From Flavihumibacter profundi (GTDB taxonomy: Bacteria > Bacteroidota > Bacteroidia > Chitinophagales > Chitinophagaceae), in NCBI RefSeq assembly GCF_020076305.1, contig NZ_JAIQXE010000001.1:744001-808000 (forward strand): a stretch of DNA of 64,000 nucleotides, in the 5' to 3' direction. Positions within the stretch are counted from its first letter, which is position 1. Every line of letters starts with the position of its first letter. Positions 49,025 to 60,160 of this stretch are shown here, one piece after another. Under the pieces are notes generated by a model. The model did not search any database. It worked only from the letters and a program-made list of their open reading frames with translations, and was not told the DNA's origin. The translations under genes and the position numbers were made by a program.

Positions 49025-49098
49025 TGATCCGGATTGGATTCAAACCAATGACCTACTGCTTAGAAGGCAGTTGCTCTATTCAGCTGAGCTACCGGACC
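49025..49098 (-). tRNA. tRNA-Arg (anticodon TCT)
   Basis: The minus strand folds into a 74-nt cloverleaf: acceptor GGTCCGG/CCGGATC, D-arm with GCTC...GAGC, anticodon arm ACTGC-CTTCTAA-GCAGT with anticodon TCT reading AGA, T-arm ATTGG-TTTGAAT-CCAAT, and discriminator A. The 3' CCA is not encoded. A matching promoter and terminator flank it. Confidence 0.95.
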
Positions 49099-49151: not shown

Positions 49152-49184
49152 TTTGGCCGGACAAAACCTGCCTTAGTATATTTG
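49152..49184 (+). promoter_or_regulatory. Promoter of the marR-hut operon
   Basis: TTTG at 49152-49155 and TATATTTG at 49177-49184 with a 21-bp spacer match the Bacteroidota promoter consensus fully. The predicted start of transcription falls near 49190, inside the palindrome at 49185-49198. It is divergent from the tRNA promoter. Confidence 0.75.
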
Positions 49185-49211: not shown

Positions 49212-49694
49212 TTGCCATTTTACCAACAATCAGGTGTGCTGGCCTTCGGTAGCCGGCTCCGCAGGCTCAGCGAAGCTTTCCTGGCTGATGTGAACAGCAT
49301 TTATAAACACCACGGCATCCGCTTCGACGCAGCCTGGTTTCCCATCTTTTATATGCTGGCGAACAATGGCGCCCTTTCCATCAGGGAGATTTCCCTGGAA
49401 CTTGAAGTATCCCATTCTGCCGCCAGCCAACTGGTGAGCAAACTGCAGGAAAAAGGGCTGGTCCGCACGGGTATCGACAAAACAGATGCCCGGAAAAAGG
49501 TGGTGACCTTTACCACCAAAGGGAACAAATTATTACAGCAGGTCCAACCCATATGGATGGCTGTTCAAAAAGCAATGGATGAACTGCTCCAGGAAACTCC
49601 CCATGGAAAATTATTAATGACTGGTATCAGCGAACTGGAAAAATCTTTCCAGCAAACCACCATCTACGACAGGATAGAAAAACAATTATTATGA
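49212..49694 (+). CDS. MarR-family regulator of the hut operon
   Basis: 160 aa from a TTG start codon; an in-frame TAG at 49203 rules out an earlier start, and no internal ATG gives a full domain. The winged helix is visible as ALSIREISLELEVSHSAASQLVSKLQEKGLVRTGIDKTDARKK in parts (helix-turn-helix 55-75, wing with DARKK). The stop overlaps the hutH start by 4 bp (ATGA), so the regulator is made together with the enzymes. Most hut operons of other phyla use HutC (GntR type) or HutP, so a MarR-type controller is a variation. Urocanate or histidine as effector is inference. Confidence 0.88.
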   Translation: MPFYQQSGVLAFGSRLRRLSEAFLADVNSIYKHHGIRFDAAWFPIFYMLANNGALSIREISLELEVSHSAASQLVSKLQEKGLVRTGIDKTDARKKVVTFTTKGNKLLQQVQPIWMAVQKAMDELLQETPHGKLLMTGISELEKSFQQTTIYDRIEKQLL

Positions 49695-51253
49695 ACAGCA
49701 CCTTTCAATATGGAATCGATCGCCTGACCATCGGTAATGTACTCGATATTTGTGCCGGCAGGCTCAAAGCTAAGCTGGGACCAGCATCTATTGTGCGTAT
49801 TAAAACCAGTGAAGCGGCCGTTGCCCGGATTGTTCATGAAAACCGCACCGTTTATGGTATTAATACCGGCTTTGGGATCCTGGCAAATACCTCCATTTCC
49901 GAAGCTGATACCCGTACACTGCAATACAAAATACTGCAAAGCCATAGCGTTGGGGTAGGCGAACCAATACACCCCGACATCGCCAAACTAATGCTGATCA
50001 CCAAAGTGCATGCCCTGGCACAGGGATTTTCAGGTGCCCAGCTGACCACACTGGAAAGGCTATGCTGGCATATTGAAAAAAATATTATTCCTGTTGTCCC
50101 GGAAAAAGGGAGTGTTGGCGCCAGCGGCGACCTGGCGCCATTGGCTCATCTTTGCCTGCCCCTGATCGGTTTGGGTGAAGTATTTGAAAATGGCGAACGG
50201 AAGGCTTCTGCAGCTGTGTTGAAAGCCCATGGACTCGATCCTATCCAACTCGGTCCGAAAGAGGGACTTGCCCTCATCAATGGCACGCAATTTATCCTGG
50301 CCCACGCGGTAAAAGGAGTAGAGCGGTTCCTCAATTGTTTGGATGCTGCTGATATCATTGGTGCCATGAGTCTCGAAGCCCTTACAGGAACCAGGGCGCC
50401 CTTTGAAGACCGGCTTCACCAACTAAGGCCCTTTGAAGGCAATCGCCTGGTAGCACAGAGACTTCGGAAAATCCTGGATGGCTCCGAAATCATGCAAAGC
50501 CATATCGACTGCGGCCGGGTGCAGGATCCTTATTCCCTGCGCTGTATGCCACAGGTTCATGGTGCCAGCCGTAATGCCTGGTTACACCTGAAATCGCTGA
50601 CAGAAACAGAACTGAATTCCGTGACAGATAACCCCATAGTATTTGATGCACACAATACGATCAGCGGCGGAAACTTTCACGGCCAGCCACTTGCTTTGCC
50701 ACTCGATTACAACTGTTTCGCGGCCGCTGAAATCGGGAATATCTCAGACCGCCGTTGCTACCTCTTGCTGGAAGGAAAATGGGGATTGCCAATGTTGCTG
50801 ATGAACAATGTTGGACTCAATAGCGGTTTTATGATCCCCCAATATACAACGGCTGCATTGGTAACAGAGAATAAAACACTATGCTTCCCGGCAAGTGCCG
50901 ATAGCATCCCCACTTCACTTGGCCAGGAAGACCATGTGAGTATGGGCAGTATCAGCGGCAGGAAACTGAACCAGGTGATTACCAACCTCGAATTCATTTT
51001 ATCCATCGAACTGATGAGCGCCTGCCAGGCCATCGAATTCAGGAGACCATTAAAAAGCAGCCCGGTCCTGGAATTTGCGCATGGTCATGTGCGCAAGTTC
51101 GTTGGCTTTGCCAATGAAGACCGGATCTTCTCGCGCGATATTGAGCAAATCAACCGTATGATCCGTGATTTTTCCTTCGTTAAAGAGGTAAACGAATTTG
51201 CCGAAAATTCAGGCCATCTTCTGAATGAAGGATTCGGGGAATATCAATTATAA
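49691..51253 (+). CDS. hutH: Histidine ammonia-lyase
   Basis: 520 aa. The Ala144-Ser145-Gly146 triad that forms the MIO cofactor sits in [14 protein letters not shown], and the N-terminal YGINTGFG motif is at 55-62. [19 protein letters not shown] and QEDHVSMG are further family signatures. The enzyme converts histidine to urocanate and ammonia in the cytoplasm, the first step of the pathway. Its start overlaps the marR stop codon. Confidence 0.97.
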
Positions 51254-51272
51254 ACGATTTAAAACATTTGTG

Positions 51273-52958
51273 ATGAGTACGATCCCAACCAGTGGCTACG
51301 ATATAAGTAAATACAAAACCCCAACGGGTACAACATTATCCTGTAAAGGATGGATCCAGGAAGCGGCACTGCGCATGCTGCTCAATAACCTTGATCCGGC
51401 TGTAGCTGAACGGCCTGATGAACTGATTGTTTACGGTGGCCGCGGCAAGGCAGCCCGCAGTTTTGAAGCGCTGGACCTCATCATCAAAGCCCTCAAAGTA
51501 CTGGAGAATGATGAATCCCTGCTGATACAGAGCGGCAAGCCCGTAGGCATTTTAAAGACACATCCGGATGCACCACGGGTGCTGATTTCCAATTCACAGC
51601 TTGTACCGAAATGGGCCACCTGGGAACATTTTGATGAGCTCGAGAAAAAGGGGCTGATGATGTATGGACAAATGACTGCCGGTTCCTGGATTTACATTGG
51701 ATCGCAGGGGATAGTCCAGGGTACCTATGAAACCTATGCAGCAGCTGCGGACAAACATTTTAACGGTACATTGAAAGGCACCCTTAACGTAACTGCCGGG
51801 CTTGGTGGAATGGGTGGCGCTCAACCTTTGTCCATTACCATGAACGAAGGAGTTGCACTTATTGCTGAAGTGGAAGAATGGCGTATCGACAAGCGCATTG
51901 AAACCCGCTACCTCGACCTGAAAATGACAGATATTGATAGCGCTATTGATCGCGCACTTGAAGCCCGCAAAAACGGGGAAGCCCTTAGTATCGGTGTCCT
52001 GTGCAATGCCGTGCACCTGCTTGCCCGGCTTATTGAAAGAAAGGTGGTGCCTGATACCCTTACTGACCAAACCTCCGCACACGACCCATTGATCGGCTAT
52101 ATTCCGCATACACTTACCGTTCAACAGGCAAATGTGCTTCGCAGGGAAAACCCATCTGCATACATTGAGCGAAGCTATGATAGTATGCGGCTGCACGTTG
52201 AACATATGCTCACCCTGCAAAAGATGGGGGCCATCACTTTTGATTATGGCAATAATATCAGGGCGCGAGCAAAGGAACGCGGACTGGCCAATGCTTTTGA
52301 TTTTCCCGGATTCGTTCCCGCTTATATCAGGCCGCTTTTCTGTGAAGGGAAAGGTCCATTCCGGTGGGCAGCCCTCAGTGGTGATCCTGCTGATATCGCG
52401 GTGACCGATGACCTGGTTGCCAGGATGTTTCCCGAAAATAAAAGCCTGCAACGCTGGCTGAAACTGGCCCGGGAAAGGATAGCCTTCCAGGGATTGCCTG
52501 CACGGATTTGCTGGCTTGGACAAGGGGAAAGGGAAAAAGCAGGGTTGGCCTTCAATGAACTGGTGCGCAGCGGAAAAGTTAAAGCGCCGATCGTAATTGG
52601 TCGCGATCACCTGGATACAGGATCTGTTGCCAGCCCGAACCGCGAAACCGAATCCATGCTCGATGGCAGTGATGCCGTAGCGGATTGGCCAATATTAAAC
52701 GCCCTTGTTAATACTGCAGGTGGCGCTTCCTGGGTGAGCCTGCACCATGGCGGGGGTGTTGGTATGGGCTATAGCATCCATGCCGGCATGGTGATTGTTG
52801 CCGATGGATCCGAAGCCGCAGCAAATAGACTGGCACGGGTTTTAAGAAATGACCCGGGAATGGGTGTGATCCGCCATGCTGATGCCGGTTATGATATTGC
52901 AAAAGATACCGCAAGGCAACATCGGTTAGACATCCGCGAAAGACTGGGCGAAGAATAA
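51273..52958 (+). CDS. hutU: Urocanate hydratase
   Basis: 561 aa from the ATG at 51273, the usual family length. An in-frame ATG at 51225 lies inside hutH and would add 16 atypical residues. YGGRGKA (54-60), [43 protein letters not shown] and [17 protein letters not shown] are the NAD-binding and catalytic signatures. The enzyme hydrates urocanate to imidazolonepropionate. It is 19 bp from hutH. Confidence 0.97.
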
Positions 52959-52977: not shown

Positions 52978-54366
52978 ATGCAAAGAAGACAGATGAATAG
53001 TATTAACGATTTTCAACGGGTGTTCTTCATCGGTGTCGCCGGTACCGGGATGAGTGCCCTTGCGCAATATTTACAAGGCATTGGCAAAACAGTTAGCGGA
53101 AGCGACCGGTATTTCAAACCCGGGGAATTTAATGACACCCGCCAGAAACTGGAGGCCGAAGGCATTACCTGCTTTGAGCAGGACGGCAGTGGTATCGCTG
53201 CAAATACCGACCTGGTGGTGGTTTCAACTGCAGTGGAAGAAACTGTTCCCGAAGTAATCAAGACCCGTTCATTAAATATTCCCATTATCAAACGCAGTGA
53301 ACTTTTAGCACTGATCGCAAAAAGTAAAAAGACCATCGCTGTTGGCGGCACTTCCGGAAAATCAACCACCAGCGCCATGCTGTTCGATATCCTTCAATTT
53401 GCCGGTAAGGAACCGAGTATTATCAGTGGTGCCGGGCTGGTAAGTATTATCCGTGAAGGGAAAATCGGGAATGCTAAAGTTGGTAAGGGTGACTGGCTGG
53501 TGATTGAAGCCGATGAAAGTGATGGCTCTATCGTACAATACTTCCCGGAAATTGGCCTCTTGCTGAATGTTGACAAGGACCATAAGGAAATAGAAGAACT
53601 GATGGATGTCTTCAACACTTTCAAAAATAACAGCAGGCGATTTGTGGTGAACCGTTCGAATTCCCTGGCTGAAAAATTATCTCAGGATATCAGCCAGGAT
53701 TTTTGTCACCATGTAAATTGCAATGCCGGTTATGTGGCCCGTGATTTCGGGCAGGATGGTTTATCGGTGAAATTTACCATCAACCATGTACCGTTTGCCA
53801 TGAACGTGGTGGGCCGGCATAACATGGAAAATGCATTAGCCGCCAGCACCATCGCCAACCTTGTGGGCATTGACCTGGCAGTTTGCGCTGAAGCACTAAA
53901 AGGATATGAAGGTATTTACCGCAGGCACCAGGTAATCGGGCAAAAACATGGGGTCTGGCTGATAGATGACTACGCCCATAACCCTGCCAAATGTGCCGCC
54001 AGCATCGAAGCCTGCCAACCCATTGCCCCTAAAGTCATTGCCTGGTTCCAACCTCATGGTTACGGGCCAACACGTTTCCTGCGCCATGATTTTGTGCATG
54101 AGATTGCCAGGGTACTGAGACCTGAAGATGAGATCTGGATGAGTGAAATTTTTTATGCCGGTGGCACGGCGACAAAAGATATTTCCGCCAATGACCTGAT
54201 CGAAGACCTGCAGAAAACAGGTAAAAACGCTTTCTTCGTCGATAACCGGAACGACCTGCTCAGTTACTTGCGGTTACACCTAACCGAAAATTGTGTTTTA
54301 CTGCTCATGGGTGCCCGTGACCCGTCTTTGGAAACCTTTGCCAACCAAATCTGGCAGGAATTGTAA
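52978..54366 (+). CDS. MurC/Mpl-like Mur ligase of unknown substrate within the hut operon
   Basis: 462 aa; an alternative ATG at 52993 would shorten it by five residues. Three Mur ligase domains are seen: an N-terminal Rossmann-like domain with GVAGTGMSALA (19-29), a central ATPase domain with P-loop GGTSGKSTT (123-131) and EADESDGS (177-184), GRHNMENALAA (279-289), and the C-terminal domain with RRHQVIG (315-321) and DDYAHNP (330-336). MurC joins UDP-MurNAc to L-alanine. The present P-loop (TSGKS rather than THGKT) and the location between hutU and hutI, 19 bp and 3 bp from them, argue against the housekeeping MurC. The substrate is unknown. No transporter or second peptidoglycan gene is nearby. 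Confidence 0.85.
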   Translation: MQRRQMNSINDFQRVFFIGVAGTGMSALAQYLQGIGKTVSGSDRYFKPGEFNDTRQKLEAEGITCFEQDGSGIAANTDLVVVSTAVEETVPEVIKTRSLNIPIIKRSELLALIAKSKKTIAVGGTSGKSTTSAMLFDILQFAGKEPSIISGAGLVSIIREGKIGNAKVGKGDWLVIEADESDGSIVQYFPEIGLLLNVDKDHKEIEELMDVFNTFKNNSRRFVVNRSNSLAEKLSQDISQDFCHHVNCNAGYVARDFGQDGLSVKFTINHVPFAMNVVGRHNMENALAASTIANLVGIDLAVCAEALKGYEGIYRRHQVIGQKHGVWLIDDYAHNPAKCAASIEACQPIAPKVIAWFQPHGYGPTRFLRHDFVHEIARVLRPEDEIWMSEIFYAGGTATKDISANDLIEDLQKTGKNAFFVDNRNDLLSYLRLHLTENCVLLLMGARDPSLETFANQIWQEL

Positions 54367-54369
54367 ACA

Positions 54370-55614
54370 ATGGCCATGCTCTTTAAAAATATTTCCATCC
54401 TGGCAGGGATCAGGTCTGCTGATAAACCTGCAAAACCCTTGCGGGGCAAAGACCTGGCCGAATTGCCGGTTATAAAAAATGCCTTCCTGCTCACCGAGGG
54501 AGATCGTATTGCCGCATTTGGACCGATGACTGAAGCACCTGCAAATATTCCCCCGGGCCAATGTATCGATGCCACTGGTCGTATTCTGATGCCTGCCTGG
54601 TGCGACAGCCATACACACCTGGTTTTTGCGGCTAGCCGGGAAAATGAATTCATCGACAAGATCAGGGGTCTCAGTTATGCTGAAATTGCTGCAAAAGGAG
54701 GGGGGATTTTAAATTCTGCTGCCCGCCTCAATGAAATGCCGGAAGACAAACTTTTTAACCTTGCCCTGCAGCGCCTGGACGAGACTGTAAAAATGGGAAC
54801 GGGGGCTATAGAAATTAAAAGCGGTTATGGATTAACGGTGGATGGAGAATTGAAAATGCTGCGGGTTATCAAAAGGCTGAAACAGGCATCCGGGTTAACT
54901 ATTAAAGCCAGCTTCCTCGGCGCACATGCATACCCGCCCCAATTCCGTGATAATCATGAAGGGTACCTTCAACTCATTGAGCAGGAAATATTGCCGGCAA
55001 TTGCCCGCGAAGGGTTGGCAGATTTTATTGACGTTTTTTGTGAAGAGGGCTTTTTTACCCAGGCTGAAACGGAAAGGATCTGCAGGGCCGGACAGGCCTA
55101 TGGCTTATTACCGAAAATCCATGCCAATCAATTGCACCTTTCCGGTGGTGTCCAGGCTGGTGTAAATGTTGGTGCCTTGTCTGTTGACCACCTCGAGACC
55201 ATGGATGAAGCCGCTATCCGATGCCTTGCAGCATCCAGCACCATTGGTACCTTATTACCAACTGCAGCTTTTTTCCTGCGGATGCCTTACCAGCCCGCCC
55301 GCCAGTTAATTGATGCCGGCTGCATCATTGCCCTGGCAAGCGATTTTAACCCGGGTTCTTCCCCCAGTGCCAATATGAACCTTGTTGTATCCATGGCCTG
55401 CATCCAGTTAAAAATGTTACCAGAAGAAGCCATTAATGCAGCTACTTTAAATGGTGCCATAGCAATGGGCATCGGTGAAACACATGGCAGCATCACAATC
55501 GGTAAAAAAGCCAGCCTTATCCTGACCAGGCCTGTGCCTTCCCTGGCTTACCTACCATATGCTTTTGGCAGCAATCTTATTGAAAGGGTAATGGTGGCTG
55601 GTGAATTTACCTGA
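54370..55614 (+). CDS. hutI: Imidazolonepropionase
   Basis: 414 aa amidohydrolase. The metal-binding HTH (81-83) lies in PAWCDSHTHLVFAASREN, followed by IEIKSGYGLTVDGELKMLRV in parts, FLGAHAYP, PKIHANQLHLSGG, SVDHLE and ALASDFNPGSSPSANM, which supply the other metal ligands and substrate residues. It opens imidazolonepropionate to N-formimidoyl-L-glutamate. It begins 3 bp after the Mur-like gene, so the ligase is part of the same transcript. Confidence 0.97.
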   Translation: MAMLFKNISILAGIRSADKPAKPLRGKDLAELPVIKNAFLLTEGDRIAAFGPMTEAPANIPPGQCIDATGRILMPAWCDSHTHLVFAASRENEFIDKIRGLSYAEIAAKGGGILNSAARLNEMPEDKLFNLALQRLDETVKMGTGAIEIKSGYGLTVDGELKMLRVIKRLKQASGLTIKASFLGAHAYPPQFRDNHEGYLQLIEQEILPAIAREGLADFIDVFCEEGFFTQAETERICRAGQAYGLLPKIHANQLHLSGGVQAGVNVGALSVDHLETMDEAAIRCLAASSTIGTLLPTAAFFLRMPYQPARQLIDAGCIIALASDFNPGSSPSANMNLVVSMACIQLKMLPEEAINAATLNGAIAMGIGETHGSITIGKKASLILTRPVPSLAYLPYAFGSNLIERVMVAGEFT

Positions 55615-55646: not shown

Positions 55647-56702
55647 TTGACTACCCCACATTTTAAGTTTTACAGTAAACAGGATATCCTTTACCTGACA
55701 CGCCTGCGACGGTTTGAAACCAAATTAGGCGAACGCCTGCAGGTAATCACGGACCAGGAACAGTTTGAAGAAAAACTGAACAAATCACCGGCACGTTTTG
55801 TCCTGTTTGGTATCCCGGAAGATATTGGGGTGAAAGCCAATTATGGCAAGGGAGGCGCAGATTCAGCCTGGTTGCCCTTTTTAACTGCCTTCCTGAATAG
55901 CCAGAGCAATGATTTTCTCACCGGCGAAGAGATTTTGTTACTGGGTCATTTTGATTTTGGGGACTTGCAGTACCTGATTGAAAACCATGCCCATGGTGAA
56001 GAGGAAAAAGTGGAAGCTTATCGGCACGCAGTACAGCAGATAGATGAGGAAGTGGAAAGCCTGTCCAAGCAAATAACTTCAGCGGGGAAAGTCCCTATTG
56101 TAATAGGTGGCGGACACAACAATGCCTATCCATTGATTAAAGGAGCTTCCAAAGGATTGTTCAAGGCTGGCAAACTGCAACTGGCGCAAATCAATGCCAT
56201 CAACCTCGATGCACATACCGATTTTCGTCCGGTTGAAGGACGCCATAGTGGCAATGGGTTCCGGTATGCCGAAGAAGATGGTTATCTGCAAAAATATTGT
56301 GTGGTTGGTGTGCAGGAGAATTACCTGCAACAGAATGTATGGCTTGATTTTGTGAATAATCCTTTCCTGGATATGATCACTTACGAAGATATTTTCCTCC
56401 ACGAAAAAAGAAATTTCATCCAGGCCCTGGCCCATGCCACGGCATTTACAGAAGACGGGTACACTGCGCTTGAACTGGATCTTGATGTAATTGAAGACAC
56501 CCTAAGCAGTGCAGAATCTCCCGTAGGGATCAGTCCCATGCATGCCCGCCAATACATCAATTTCGTGGCAATGAATTCGAAGCCGGCCTACCTGCATATC
56601 TGCGAAGGAGCAACCCAACTGAGTGATGGCAGGAAATGCGAAACTACCGGCAAACTCATCAGTTACCTGGTAAGCGATTTTATAAAAGCATCAATTATAT
56701 AG
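55647..56702 (+). CDS. hutG: Formimidoylglutamase-type arginase-family enzyme
   Basis: 351 aa from a TTG start. Arginase-fold metal ligands are all present: His157 in GGGHNNAYP, Asp188/His190/Asp192 in LDAHTDFRP, and Asp278/Asp280 in ELDLDVI. In the last place of a hut operon it should hydrolyse formimidoylglutamate to glutamate and formamide. Its N-terminal part is longer than in classical HutG. Its 3' end overlaps the convergent aldolase-like gene by 40 bp. Confidence 0.9.
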   Translation: MTTPHFKFYSKQDILYLTRLRRFETKLGERLQVITDQEQFEEKLNKSPARFVLFGIPEDIGVKANYGKGGADSAWLPFLTAFLNSQSNDFLTGEEILLLGHFDFGDLQYLIENHAHGEEEKVEAYRHAVQQIDEEVESLSKQITSAGKVPIVIGGGHNNAYPLIKGASKGLFKAGKLQLAQINAINLDAHTDFRPVEGRHSGNGFRYAEEDGYLQKYCVVGVQENYLQQNVWLDFVNNPFLDMITYEDIFLHEKRNFIQALAHATAFTEDGYTALELDLDVIEDTLSSAESPVGISPMHARQYINFVAMNSKPAYLHICEGATQLSDGRKCETTGKLISYLVSDFIKASII

Positions 56703-57841
56703 CTGGTATCCTGGTATAAAAGAGTTTCGTTCACAGAAATTTTTGCCATATTATTTTGGTCGGGTTTGGGTATCCTGATGTTGAAATCATTGAATAATTT
56801 TTCCTGGGTTTTTCCCCCATTAATATTTTTATCCAACTGCAATACATAGATATTAGTACCTCCATCAAGGGCGCTGATGTTAATACCCTTAACCTGGTTC
56901 AATGCAGAAAAAATTTTTACCGATCGGTTGATGGCTTCCTTTAAGCGGTTTTCAATTCCTTCAAGCCTGTTATAGGCCATGGCAGCGTTTAACCAATTGC
57001 CATACATGGTGCCACCATGGATCTTAACCAGGTGCTCCATTTTGTCAATCACTGTCTTTTCTCCGCAAAGCATTGCGCCTCCGCTGGCGCCCAGGTATTT
57101 GTATAAGGAGATATAAATCGTATCAAAATATGAAGCATACTCCTGCACAGAAATACCTGACCAGGCTGAAGCCAGGTAAATACGGGCACCGTCGAGGTGT
57201 AGTTTGATATTGTTGTTACGGCAATAGGCACTTATTTTCCTGATCTCCTCAATGGGTACCATCCTGCCATCAGCCCTCCTTACCGGGTTTTCGATGGAAA
57301 CTGCGCCTACACCGCTTTTAAACACTTCATCAACCTCAAGGGATTCTATTGCCTGCTGCAATGCTGCTGAAGTAAAATATGTTTCACCTTTTGCTAATGG
57401 CATAAGCCTTTTCTGGTGAACCGATTGGGCAGCATCGGCTTCATCCCGGAATACATGGCTGGTTTCCTGGACAAATACTTTTGTGTTTGTTCCACTAAGA
57501 ACCGCTATGGCCAATTGATTTGCCATCGTGCCGGTTGGCATGAACATGGCCTTTTCTTTACCTGTAATGGCTTCGAATTTTTTTTCCAATGCGGCGACTG
57601 TGCCTCCATGGCCATACCGGTCTTTTTCAATAGCTGACACATTGTTCATTTGAACCAATTGGTCTAAGTACACAGCTGGCTCAAACATTTCACCATCACC
57701 AAAAAATTTCACTAGTGGCTGTATTGGTGCCGGGGGGATCCCTGAAGGATTGCCCGCAATTGCTGCAGAAAAGGGCAGGAGTGCAGGAATTAAGGACATC
57801 CCGGAAGATTGCAGGAATTTTCTTCTGTTAAATACTGGCAT
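56663..57841 (-). CDS. Exported threonine-aldolase-like PLP enzyme
   Basis: 392 aa. Residues 1-30 form a Tat-type leader (FNRRKFLQSSG, arginines 6-7, then a hydrophobic stretch). The rest is a fold-type-I PLP enzyme of the L-threonine aldolase/beta-eliminating lyase family: PTGTMANQL (102-110), HLDGARIYLA (215-224, Asp217 for the PLP nitrogen) and SLYKYLGA with the PLP lysine at 248. These enzymes are usually cytoplasmic, so a Tat signal is unusual and would send a folded PLP-loaded enzyme outside. Its 3' end overlaps hutG tail to tail. The substrate may be a beta-hydroxy amino acid. Confidence 0.85.
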   Translation of the reverse strand: MPVFNRRKFLQSSGMSLIPALLPFSAAIAGNPSGIPPAPIQPLVKFFGDGEMFEPAVYLDQLVQMNNVSAIEKDRYGHGGTVAALEKKFEAITGKEKAMFMPTGTMANQLAIAVLSGTNTKVFVQETSHVFRDEADAAQSVHQKRLMPLAKGETYFTSAALQQAIESLEVDEVFKSGVGAVSIENPVRRADGRMVPIEEIRKISAYCRNNNIKLHLDGARIYLASAWSGISVQEYASYFDTIYISLYKYLGASGGAMLCGEKTVIDKMEHLVKIHGGTMYGNWLNAAMAYNRLEGIENRLKEAINRSVKIFSALNQVKGINISALDGGTNIYVLQLDKNINGGKTQEKLFNDFNIRIPKPDQNNMAKISVNETLLYQDTSYIIDAFIKSLTR

Positions 57842-57889: not shown

Positions 57890-60160
57890 TTAGAACATAG
57901 CCCTGGAAAAGCGATAGCCCAGGTTTACATAATTTTTCAGGATACCGCTCTGGTCGCTGTACATAAAGCTGAACTCCAGCGGACCGATAGGGGAATCTAT
58001 GCCTAACGTTAACCCATAACCGGTTAATAGTTTTTCAGGGGTATAGTAAAATTGCTGCTGTTGCAGGAATGAATGGTACATCAGGTTTAAAGTGGCTGCG
58101 GCGTAAACACTGCCTGAAAACTGGTACCTCCAGTTGAAGGATCCTTTAACGAGACTATTGGTGCGCACCGAAGCATCGGGAATGCCGGTAAATGTAACCT
58201 GGTTACGGATAACCGGTTGCATACCGCCAACCACAAAATCCTGGAATACGAATGAGTTTGTATTGAAATTTGCATCTGCTTCGGCCTGAAGGGTAATGAA
58301 ATTTTTGCGGGAAACAGGAACCACTTTCTGTGCCTGGAACCGGAACCTGGTAAAAGTACTTTTTTTAATACCCAGTGAATCCATATTCCCAATCTCCGCG
58401 CCATTGGATTTTAAGGTGATATCCTCAGGCCTGTTGATAATAACCGACGGTTCAAATAACACGTAACCACCCCTGCGGGGGAGGAACAAACGATCGTGTG
58501 AATTATATTCATACCTGAAATAAGCCTGGCTGAAATTATTAGTTCCCCTCAGGTCAAGGATAGTCTGGGATAATGGTTTGATCGATCCGGTTTCCCAGTG
58601 CATCCCAACTGCATAGGATGACCTTCTTTTAAAAGCGAGTTGCAACCGCGTGTCAACATAAAAAAGAGATTGCCGGTTGCTGCCAATAACCCTGAAATCT
58701 TTATATGATGAAAATTCCTGCCGCTCTCCATACATTTCGGTAATGGATGCCATTGGTATTTTCTTTGTACCGAAGATCATGGTATGTTCCAGCCTTAGCC
58801 GCGGATTTTCAGAAATGCCGATTGTGGCTGAGCTGATACTTGGTTTGCCAATAATATCACGGATAGTCATGTTGGCAATCAACATGATATTACTGAATGA
58901 ATTATAATTGATGGCAAGTTTGGCAGTGACCGGGGCATTCTCTTCTGCAATCAGGTGCATATCGGCTACGCCACTTTCTACCGGTTCCAGCTGGTAATAC
59001 AGCCTGTTGAAATACCGGGTTCCATAAGCTTGCCGGATGCCGTCTTCCAGCTCTTTTACGGTATATGCCTGTCCCTCTTTTATACCCAGCATTTTTACCA
59101 GGAACACTTTGCTGATGTACCTTAAGCTATCCGTTATCACGTGCCGGATGGTTATTCTTGGAGCTGTAGCCGGGAAAGTAACTTTTTCAGGTATCCCATA
59201 AATTGCATTAAGGGAATCTGCAAGATGTTTGAATACCGGGTAAAATTGATTTCCCATTTCCAGTCCGATTGCAGTTATACTGTCGCTACTGTTAAAGCTG
59301 GCAGTATTGTATTTTGCTAATGGATGGGTAATATAATAATCAACCAGTCCGATTTCCTGTTTTACAGATTCTGCTTCCTTGAAAAAAGCGATCTGCATCA
59401 GGATCTGAATGGGAGAAGTGATTTTTTGCGCGGATAATAAACCTGTGGCCACATTGCTTCCAATTACGATATCGGCACCCATTTGCCGCACATCACTCAC
59501 GGGAAAATTGCGGACTAGTCCGCCATCTACCAGCTTTTTATTACCAAGGTTTACTGCAGTGAAAACGGATGGGATTGCCATACTGCTGCGTACCGCACTT
59601 ACCAGGTCGCCACTGTCTAATACAACTGCTTCTCCGGTGGCGAGGTCGGTGGCGATACATTTAAATGGCCGCTTCAACTGGTTGAAATCGCGAACCTGGT
59701 AAACCGGGTGAAACAATTCATCAAATTTTAACCAGAGTTCCTCAGCCTCCAAAACCCCTGAAGGAACACTGAACCGGCCGCGGGTTTGCATGGGTAATTC
59801 CAGGGCATAGCGGCCATATTCACTTTTCTCCTCCATTATGAAGGCATTCAGGGAAGACTTATTGCTGAGCAATTGGCTCCAGTCTAACTTATTGGCGATT
59901 TGTAAAATAGAATCACCGGAATAGCCTACGGCATAAAGGCTTCCAACAATGGCGCCCATAGATGTTCCGGTAACATAATCAATTTGTAGTCCGGCTGAAT
60001 CAATAGCTTTTAGAATTCCAATATGGGCCAATCCTTTTGCGCCACCGCCACTAAGGGTTAACCCAATTTTCGGCCGGTGGTTCTGTTGCGTATAGGCTAA
60101 CAGGGAATGAAAGAATATTAAACTGAAGAGGCTGCGGAGAAAAATATTCCGATAACGCAT
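57890..60160 (-). CDS. Patatin-like phospholipase with C-terminal BamA-type barrel
   Basis: 756 aa with a signal peptide (about 1-25). The patatin domain has the oxyanion loop GGGAKG (38-43), the nucleophile motif GTSMG (Ser67) and the catalytic Asp212 in VDGGLVRNFP. A POTRA-like segment (about 340-410: ITIRHVITDSLRYISKVFL, YTVKELEDGIRQAYGTRYF in parts) leads to a C-terminal beta-barrel of the surface-antigen/Omp85 type ending SRAMF. This is the PlpD-like architecture, a type Vd self-secreting lipase. It starts 11 bp after the ABC-F stop. Confidence 0.9.
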   Translation of the reverse strand: MRYRNIFLRSLFSLIFFHSLLAYTQQNHRPKIGLTLSGGGAKGLAHIGILKAIDSAGLQIDYVTGTSMGAIVGSLYAVGYSGDSILQIANKLDWSQLLSNKSSLNAFIMEEKSEYGRYALELPMQTRGRFSVPSGVLEAEELWLKFDELFHPVYQVRDFNQLKRPFKCIATDLATGEAVVLDSGDLVSAVRSSMAIPSVFTAVNLGNKKLVDGGLVRNFPVSDVRQMGADIVIGSNVATGLLSAQKITSPIQILMQIAFFKEAESVKQEIGLVDYYITHPLAKYNTASFNSSDSITAIGLEMGNQFYPVFKHLADSLNAIYGIPEKVTFPATAPRITIRHVITDSLRYISKVFLVKMLGIKEGQAYTVKELEDGIRQAYGTRYFNRLYYQLEPVESGVADMHLIAEENAPVTAKLAINYNSFSNIMLIANMTIRDIIGKPSISSATIGISENPRLRLEHTMIFGTKKIPMASITEMYGERQEFSSYKDFRVIGSNRQSLFYVDTRLQLAFKRRSSYAVGMHWETGSIKPLSQTILDLRGTNNFSQAYFRYEYNSHDRLFLPRRGGYVLFEPSVIINRPEDITLKSNGAEIGNMDSLGIKKSTFTRFRFQAQKVVPVSRKNFITLQAEADANFNTNSFVFQDFVVGGMQPVIRNQVTFTGIPDASVRTNSLVKGSFNWRYQFSGSVYAAATLNLMYHSFLQQQQFYYTPEKLLTGYGLTLGIDSPIGPLEFSFMYSDQSGILKNYVNLGYRFSRAMF

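Follow-up and report, generated by a model that had tools for sequence, protein, structure and literature searches.

What does a Mur ligase do among the genes for histidine breakdown? In a 64,000-nucleotide stretch of the Flavihumibacter profundi genome (contig NZ_JAIQXE010000001.1, positions 744,001 to 808,000 of the forward strand), referred to here as the window, a gene that we designate murX encodes a MurC-like ligase and lies between hutU and hutI of a histidine-utilisation (hut) operon. The original prediction, made from the sequence alone, had placed a full-length Mur ligase there with gaps of 19 and 3 bp to its neighbours. The coordinates are confirmed (Table 1), the Pfam domains Mur_ligase, Mur_ligase_M and Mur_ligase_C all score above cut-off, and the P-loop VGGTSGKSTT and the motifs EADESDGS and DDYAHNP are present. 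We put the probability at about 0.6 that murX is a UDP-N-acetylmuramic acid (UDP-MurNAc):peptide ligase that belongs on the MurC side of the Mur ligase family and takes over the task of Mpl in peptidoglycan recycling, Mpl being the enzyme that joins a tripeptide to UDP-MurNAc (excerpts of PMC3060825). We regard murX as a probable stand-in for Mpl because it is reciprocal in its occurrence with an Mpl-like ligase, separate from MurC, and rebuilt in its acceptor site.

Reciprocal occurrence of murX and an Mpl-like ligase

An initial search of 39 genomes recovered murX in all 15 of the genus (the host included), in two of nine others of the family Chitinophagaceae and in none of 15 others of the order. 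Of the 22 genomes without murX, 15 yielded a second MurC-like match at greater distance; this is a ligase of Bacteroidota with a resemblance to Mpl and is termed Mpl-like in the following. When 195 genomes of the family were searched with family alignments, at thresholds of E 1e-100 for murX and 1e-70 for the Mpl-like gene, murX was found in 78, the Mpl-like gene in 107, neither in ten and both in none, compared with 42.8 genomes expected to hold both if the genes were independent, an expectation that ignores kinship. Seven of the ten genomes with neither gene are less than 90% complete. The same picture was obtained for 296 genomes of the phylum, of which seven contained murX and 105 the Mpl-like gene or a distant homologue (56 strong matches and 49 at 238-271 bits), again with no genome holding both. 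One murX genome outside the family, G499, belongs to family f23, where four other genomes checked have the Mpl-like gene, and in the genera g57 and g103 the two genes occur in different species of the same genus.

To place these states on a phylogeny, MurC and MurG were used as a proxy for the species tree in 166 genomes, namely the 153 of the 195 family genomes with a listed and fetched murC place and 13 further ones, of which five belong to the genus, three to the order and five to f23. Among these, 73 have murX, 91 the Mpl-like gene and two neither. The tree requires at least 16 changes between the murX and Mpl-like states, 12 of them forced by well supported branches, a count that transfer of the MurC-MurG cluster would disturb. 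Among 12 independent pairs, the change in the Mpl-like gene was opposite to that in murX in 10.9, parallel in 0 and absent in 1.1 (means of 200 pairings), with p about 0.001 in a sign test. A tree of 45 genomes that included FtsQ and bootstraps gave six changes, four of them forced, and four pairs, none of which went the same way. Judged by a yardstick of our own, murX appears to fill the slot of Mpl, which supports an Mpl-like mode of working and not membership in the Mpl family.

The swaps seem mostly not to have occurred in place. An Mpl-like gene at the genomic position of murX was considered and rejected, as 17 of 20 Mpl-like loci (1.5-kb flanks) share no neighbour with murX. At L139 the Mpl-like gene adjoins a DUF1905/OmdA gene that elsewhere flanks murX, L128 and L140 show weak neighbour matches between Mpl-like and murX loci (28-43% identity), and in wider loci one cluster of SDR-like genes, assigned by eye, is represented near the Mpl-like gene at locus L186 and near murX at locus L190. 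Note that in G499 two genes lie between murX and a gene for a fusion of Mur ligase and alanine racemase (L190:2935-5379, minus strand).

Relation to MurC and the acceptor site

murX is distinct from the housekeeping MurC. The further murC for which the original prediction had suggested a search is present in the host genome (4.87 Mb in six contigs) at C2:971745, with murD nearby at C2:968048, and its product is 33% identical to murX. The match of murX to the murC model TIGR01082 is nearly full-length and stays below the cut-off (303.2 vs 335.1 bits), as it does for the five murX proteins of the 14-genome scan described below (309-332 bits); the score against the mpl model TIGR01081 lies far below its cut-off (112.4 vs 388.7 bits). 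A tree of 41 proteins resolves murX, the MurC of the dcw cluster and the Mpl-like ligase of Bacteroidota into three distinct clades, all supported at 100/100, and the proposed tree of Mur ligases has thereby set murX outside the dcw MurC clade. The union of murX with dcw MurC and Escherichia coli MurC (EcMurC) is supported by only 87/76 with long-branch warnings, and the Mpl-like clade joins E. coli Mpl (EcMpl) at 92/79, likewise on long branches. Identity between murX and the Mpl-like proteins is 23-30% (tblastn, 20 Mpl-like loci). A scan of 14 chosen genomes with the MurC model returned one MurC above cut-off in each, in addition to murX in five, the Mpl-like protein in seven and neither in two, and at E 1e-101 MurC was detected in 70 of the 78 murX and 101 of the 107 Mpl-like genomes of the family.

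Active-site residues were compared in 88 murX, 12 dcw MurC and 12 Mpl-like sequences as well as EcMurC and EcMpl, with the numbering of Haemophilus influenzae MurC (HiMurC) carried over. According to excerpts of PMC3060825, HiMurC employs Thr130, Glu173 and His198 for Mg and His376, Arg377, Arg380, Tyr346 and His348 for the incoming amino acid. By the general criteria murX passes as a MurC/Mpl-type ligase, with N, M and C domains, the P-loop Lys, the Mg-binding Glu and His, and Phe212 for carbamoyl-Lys; it shares with MurC the three-domain fold and, at equivalent positions, Glu177, His202 and Phe212. Lys128, Glu177, Glu180, His202, Phe212, Arg315-316 and Asp330-331 are invariant in all 88 murX proteins, and the adenine-binding His is retained in 85. 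The departure of the P-loop from that of housekeeping MurC, already remarked upon in the original prediction, is borne out: Ser126 in all 88 occupies the place of the P-loop His of MurC and Mpl, which is kept in 12/12 dcw MurC and 12/12 Mpl-like proteins. Ser129 in turn replaces the Mg1 Thr (88/88).

The larger changes are found where the acceptor is bound. His360 and His334 are kept throughout, and residue 332 is a Tyr in 75 and a Phe in 13 sequences. The position of HiMurC Arg380, however, is Pro in 88/88 murX, compared with Arg in 12/12 dcw MurC, Ser in 12/12 Mpl-like proteins and Met in EcMpl, and that of Arg377 is Gly in 88/88. The second His of the HHP motif (equivalent to HiMurC His349) is Asn in all murX, Ala or Ser in the Mpl-like proteins and His in MurC and EcMpl. 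Lys338 is present in at least 87 of 88 murX and in 12/12 Mpl-like proteins, where 12/12 dcw MurC have Glu, and Arg447 is peculiar to murX (at least 87/88), with Gly in 12/12 of both other groups. Apart from these replacements at the P-loop His, Arg380 and the second His, murX differs from MurC in a 5-residue insertion after GSD, in a shorter loop after the Mg His and in its coexistence with a separate MurC. With Mpl (TIGR01081; E. coli b4233, 3hn7) it has in common that the Arg pair of the MurC acceptor site is missing, as in EcMpl; unlike Mpl it has no EPRSNT and shows GARDP where EcMpl has SNGGF. The Mpl-like ligase resembles murX in the loss of Arg380 and the presence of Lys338, but retains the P-loop His, carries a 7-residue Mpl-type insertion and forms its own clade. 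By sequence comparison, most ATP and Mg positions of murX are thus conserved and the acceptor site appears rebuilt. Free L-Ala would require a carboxylate-binding Arg, whereas a peptide in which the carboxyl group of L-Ala is amide-bonded would not.

Candidate functions of murX

In the reading that we favour, murX would join a recovered stem peptide to UDP-MurNAc, and it most likely acts as Mpl does while standing outside the Mpl family. We infer that UDP-MurNAc is the donor, that the tripeptide is the acceptor and that the Mpl-like family functions as Mpl. LdcA trims peptides to the tripeptide used by Mpl (excerpts of PMC6448482 and PMC13046382), and the LdcA family (PF02016) is represented in 75 of 78 murX and 99 of 107 Mpl-like genomes.

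A number of observations weigh against this assignment. The loop (S/T)AFFDKRSK, described in excerpts of PMC3060825 as specific for Mpl and present in all 17 Mpl annotated in 2009, has no counterpart in murX, which has a 7-residue gap at that place. The murX profile is closer to MurC than to Mpl (326 vs 211 in hhalign), and the best Foldseek match of its AlphaFold (AF2) model, with a predicted local distance difference test score (pLDDT) of 90.5, is H. influenzae MurC at a template-modelling (TM) score of 0.87, with Mpl 3hn7 from P. arcticus only at rank 22 (TM 0.66); residues 363-366 of the acceptor loop have pLDDT below 50 and the model is uninformative there. Of the Arg pair, Arg380 alone is informative, because the dcw MurC of Bacteroidota itself lacks Arg377 (Leu in 12/12), and Lys338 is no general mark of Mpl, as EcMpl has Ala at this position. 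The uracil contacts Leu51 and His71 of EcMurC correspond to Arg44 and Gln68 in murX; dcw MurC of the phylum also differs from EcMurC at these positions, and the residues would neither prove nor exclude UDP binding. As for the partner, the one Mpl-like member scanned misses both NCBIfam cut-offs and scores higher with murC than with mpl (259 vs 189), and its structural model (pLDDT 90.9) retrieves MurC first and 3hn7 at rank 8. With respect to distribution, neither gene is seen in three genomes that are at least 97% complete (G072, G131, G190), and in eight murX genomes no MurC match reaches E 1e-101. The phylogeny of 166 genomes was computed quickly under LG+G4, with branches rated by SH-aLRT and not by bootstrap, and the four pairs of the 45-genome tree are not significant by themselves. 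Finally, mutual exclusion indicates a shared function without saying which.

This last point leads to the rival that survives best, in which murX and the Mpl-like ligase share one function other than tripeptide salvage, be it the ligation of UDP-MurNAc with a different peptide or amino acid, or the use of a different nucleotide-linked donor. Interchangeability is all that it asks of the distribution, and it agrees with an Mpl-like protein below the Mpl cut-off and a murX devoid of the Mpl loop. We nevertheless consider it rather unlikely: the Mpl-like family profile is nearer to EcMpl than to MurC (345 vs 279) and its 7-residue insertion includes an EKRPKF-type stretch where Mpl has DKRSKF, and LdcA accompanies most genomes of both kinds.

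We further weighed whether murX could be an additional MurC isozyme, charging UDP-MurNAc with L-Ala or with another small first residue, for instance Gly or Ser. Sequence, profile and fold are all closest to MurC, and there is a precedent in Frankia, where, according to excerpts of PMC7231273, two MurC types exist and one gradually replaces the other. Like murX with MurC, Frankia MurC1 and MurC2 represent two MurC-type genes per genome with displacement by lineage; there, however, MurC displaces MurC near murG, whereas murX trades places with the Mpl-like ligase and not with MurC. A replacement of MurC by murX ranks low because MurC stays beside it, in 5/5 scanned genomes and in most of the family as given above, and the Pro and Asn found in every murX at the Arg380 and His349 equivalents do not fit an enzyme of this kind, so that the isozyme is improbable.

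Genomic setting and the hut operon

The comparison of related hut operons that the original prediction had proposed shows that the insertion of murX recurs. In the genus, hutI adjoins murX in 15/15 genomes and hutU is within the fetched flank in 13/15; the murX locus of G006 lies at a contig end, and in G007 one gene is inserted between hutU and murX (L035:9895-11394), its 499-residue product appearing secreted by eye. Together with the (nearly) invariant catalytic residues checked in 88 sequences, this upholds the earlier view that the tight packing is not due to chance. In a wider comparison we considered the best 80 of 412 relatives from a scan of named genomes. A called hutU is upstream of murX at 11 of these loci, ten of which have a called hutI and one, the short contig L045, a hutI fragment downstream. 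At 19 loci hutI is found downstream without a called hutU, as the next gene in 13; L102 has a hutU fragment at the contig start and hutI downstream of murX. The remaining 50 loci show no hut neighbour; some of them lie at the end of a contig, and at L108 the open reading frame is cut. On a quick murX tree with many open forks the hutI label changes at least 11 times over 85 rows, and since several early-branching rows bear it, the murX-hutI pair looks old and several times broken or formed. In genus g115 (G129, G203), hutH and murX share contig and strand and are some 1.8 kb apart, which corresponds to the length of a hutU gene.

murX does not occur only with hut genes. No hutH match at E 1e-100 was found in eight of the 78 murX genomes, five of which are at least 96% complete, and hutH is about as frequent with the Mpl-like gene (97/107) as with murX (70/78), counts that include ten matches under the family cut-off. 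Altogether 21 family genomes lack hutH, among them G218 (Mpl-like), which was placed by elimination. murX is independent of histidine catabolism. A histidine-pathway ligase that attaches formimidoylglutamate, glutamate or urocanate to some carrier, along the lines envisaged in the original prediction, finds some backing in the operon packing, in hutI downstream at 30/80 loci (29 called open reading frames plus the L045 fragment) on several murX branches and in hutH near murX in a second genus, but it is very improbable because of the distribution of murX, with 50/80 loci devoid of a hut neighbour, 8/78 genomes without hutH and hutH equally common with either ligase. Its second suggestion, a modification of peptidoglycan with pathway products, stands in part: a role in peptidoglycan fits, and the location most likely provides murX with a shared transcript and not with a histidine-derived substrate. 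The hut operon, in our view, is where murX resides in a single genus and some of its relatives, a few in number, and is not its pathway.

In the window the cluster runs marR-hutH-hutU-murX-hutI-hutG on the plus strand (Table 1). Met6 (52993) is the preferred start of murX because homologues begin near it, which would widen the gap to hutU from 19 to 34 bp. A promoter-like site, which we take to be of the Bacteroidota style, precedes marR. The pattern TAnnTTTG occurs 44 times in the window compared with a mean of 65.7 in shuffled sequences, i.e. without excess. A single transcript for the marR-hut-murX cluster is plausible, because no further plus-strand TAnnTTTG is found before 57476.

Table 1. 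Features of the murX locus and motifs of its product; positions refer to the window unless a locus is named.
Feature	Position	Strand	Remarks
tRNA gene	49025..49098	-	divergent, directly upstream of the marR-hut cluster
promoter-like site TTG-N21-TATATTTG	49153..49184	+	5' of marR; consensus match only
MarR-family regulator	49212..49694	+	first cluster gene; PF12802, 47 bits
hutH, histidine ammonia-lyase	49691..51253	+	TIGR01225, 597 bits vs cut-off 539
hutU, urocanate hydratase	51225..52958	+	TIGR01228, 937 bits vs cut-off 375
murX, MurC-like Mur ligase	52978..54366	+	462 aa
P-loop GGTSGKSTT, residues 123-131	53344..53370	+	Ser126 and Ser129 in 88/88
EADESDGS, residues 177-184	53506..53529	+	Glu177 (Mg1) and Glu180 in 88/88; roles after excerpts of PMC3060825
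DKDH, residues 199-202	53572..53583	+	His202 at Mg2 ligand position, 88/88; role after excerpts of PMC3060825
DDYAHNPAKC, residues 330-339	53965..53994	+	Asn335 for second His; Lys338
QPHGYGPTR, residues 358-366	54049..54075	+	acceptor loop; Gly361 and Pro364 at HiMurC Arg377 and Arg380
GARD, residues 445-448	54310..54321	+	Arg447 conserved, C-terminal loop
hutI, imidazolonepropionase	54370..55614	+	TIGR01224, 400 bits vs cut-off 298
hutG-like formimidoylglutamase, arginase family	55647..56702	+	PF00491, 61 bits, above cut-off; below hutG cut-off (TIGR01227, 66 vs 229 bits)
threonine-aldolase-like gene	56663..57841	-	convergent, 40-bp overlap with the hutG-like end
patatin-like gene (by eye)	57890..60160	-	after the hut cluster
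sodium/hydrogen exchanger-family gene	L047:10639-11871		equivalents in L048, L049, L050 and L057; L047 member scanned

Several neighbours vary between loci. Genes of the sequence cluster to which the patatin-like gene belongs are also found beside hutG in the more distant loci L058 and L102. Part of the genus carries a Na+/H+ exchanger-family gene between hutI and hutG, which is absent from the window. In 13 loci a major facilitator superfamily (MFS) gene lies directly upstream of murX on the same strand (L087, L088, L097, L099, L101, L109 and L113, and likewise L054, L064, L073, L075, L076 and L080), overlapping murX by 4 bp in five of them; hutI follows murX in ten, and a formimidoyltransferase-cyclodeaminase gene is near murX in six. 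An AmpG-type muropeptide importer was considered for the MFS gene and rejected, as the one member scanned, from L051, where it is downstream, best matches Tet(A)-type efflux models, below cut-off. A single-protein query found no murX relatives in viral contigs. Relatives are present in 23 plasmid records, none of which reaches 60% identity; among the 20 listed, identity is 27-31%, and the annotated ones are mostly called murC. Among the matches listed in our literature searches, none treated murC and hut genes together, and none dealt with a MurC-like gene in hut operons or one replacing Mpl.

A wider picture can be drawn only tentatively: muropeptide ligation may have arisen twice, the second time on the MurC side through remodelling of the acceptor site, in a mobile gene exchanged with the Mpl type at least a dozen times, and the hut wiring of an old branch might switch salvage and histidine use together, in this genus through the MarR-type regulator. 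The locus carries a warning that tight packing within a catabolic operon need not imply a role in that catabolism. Naming by best match would label murX a spare MurC, as its top NCBIfam match is murC, and if the assignment to Mpl's job is true, this label would hide the recycling of peptides in some 40% of the Chitinophagaceae genomes sampled (78/195). The exchange of murX and the Mpl-like ligase would then be a non-orthologous displacement within a cell-wall pathway with many independent swaps, and the two families would constitute a natural experiment on what an acceptor site needs for a peptide as opposed to an amino acid.
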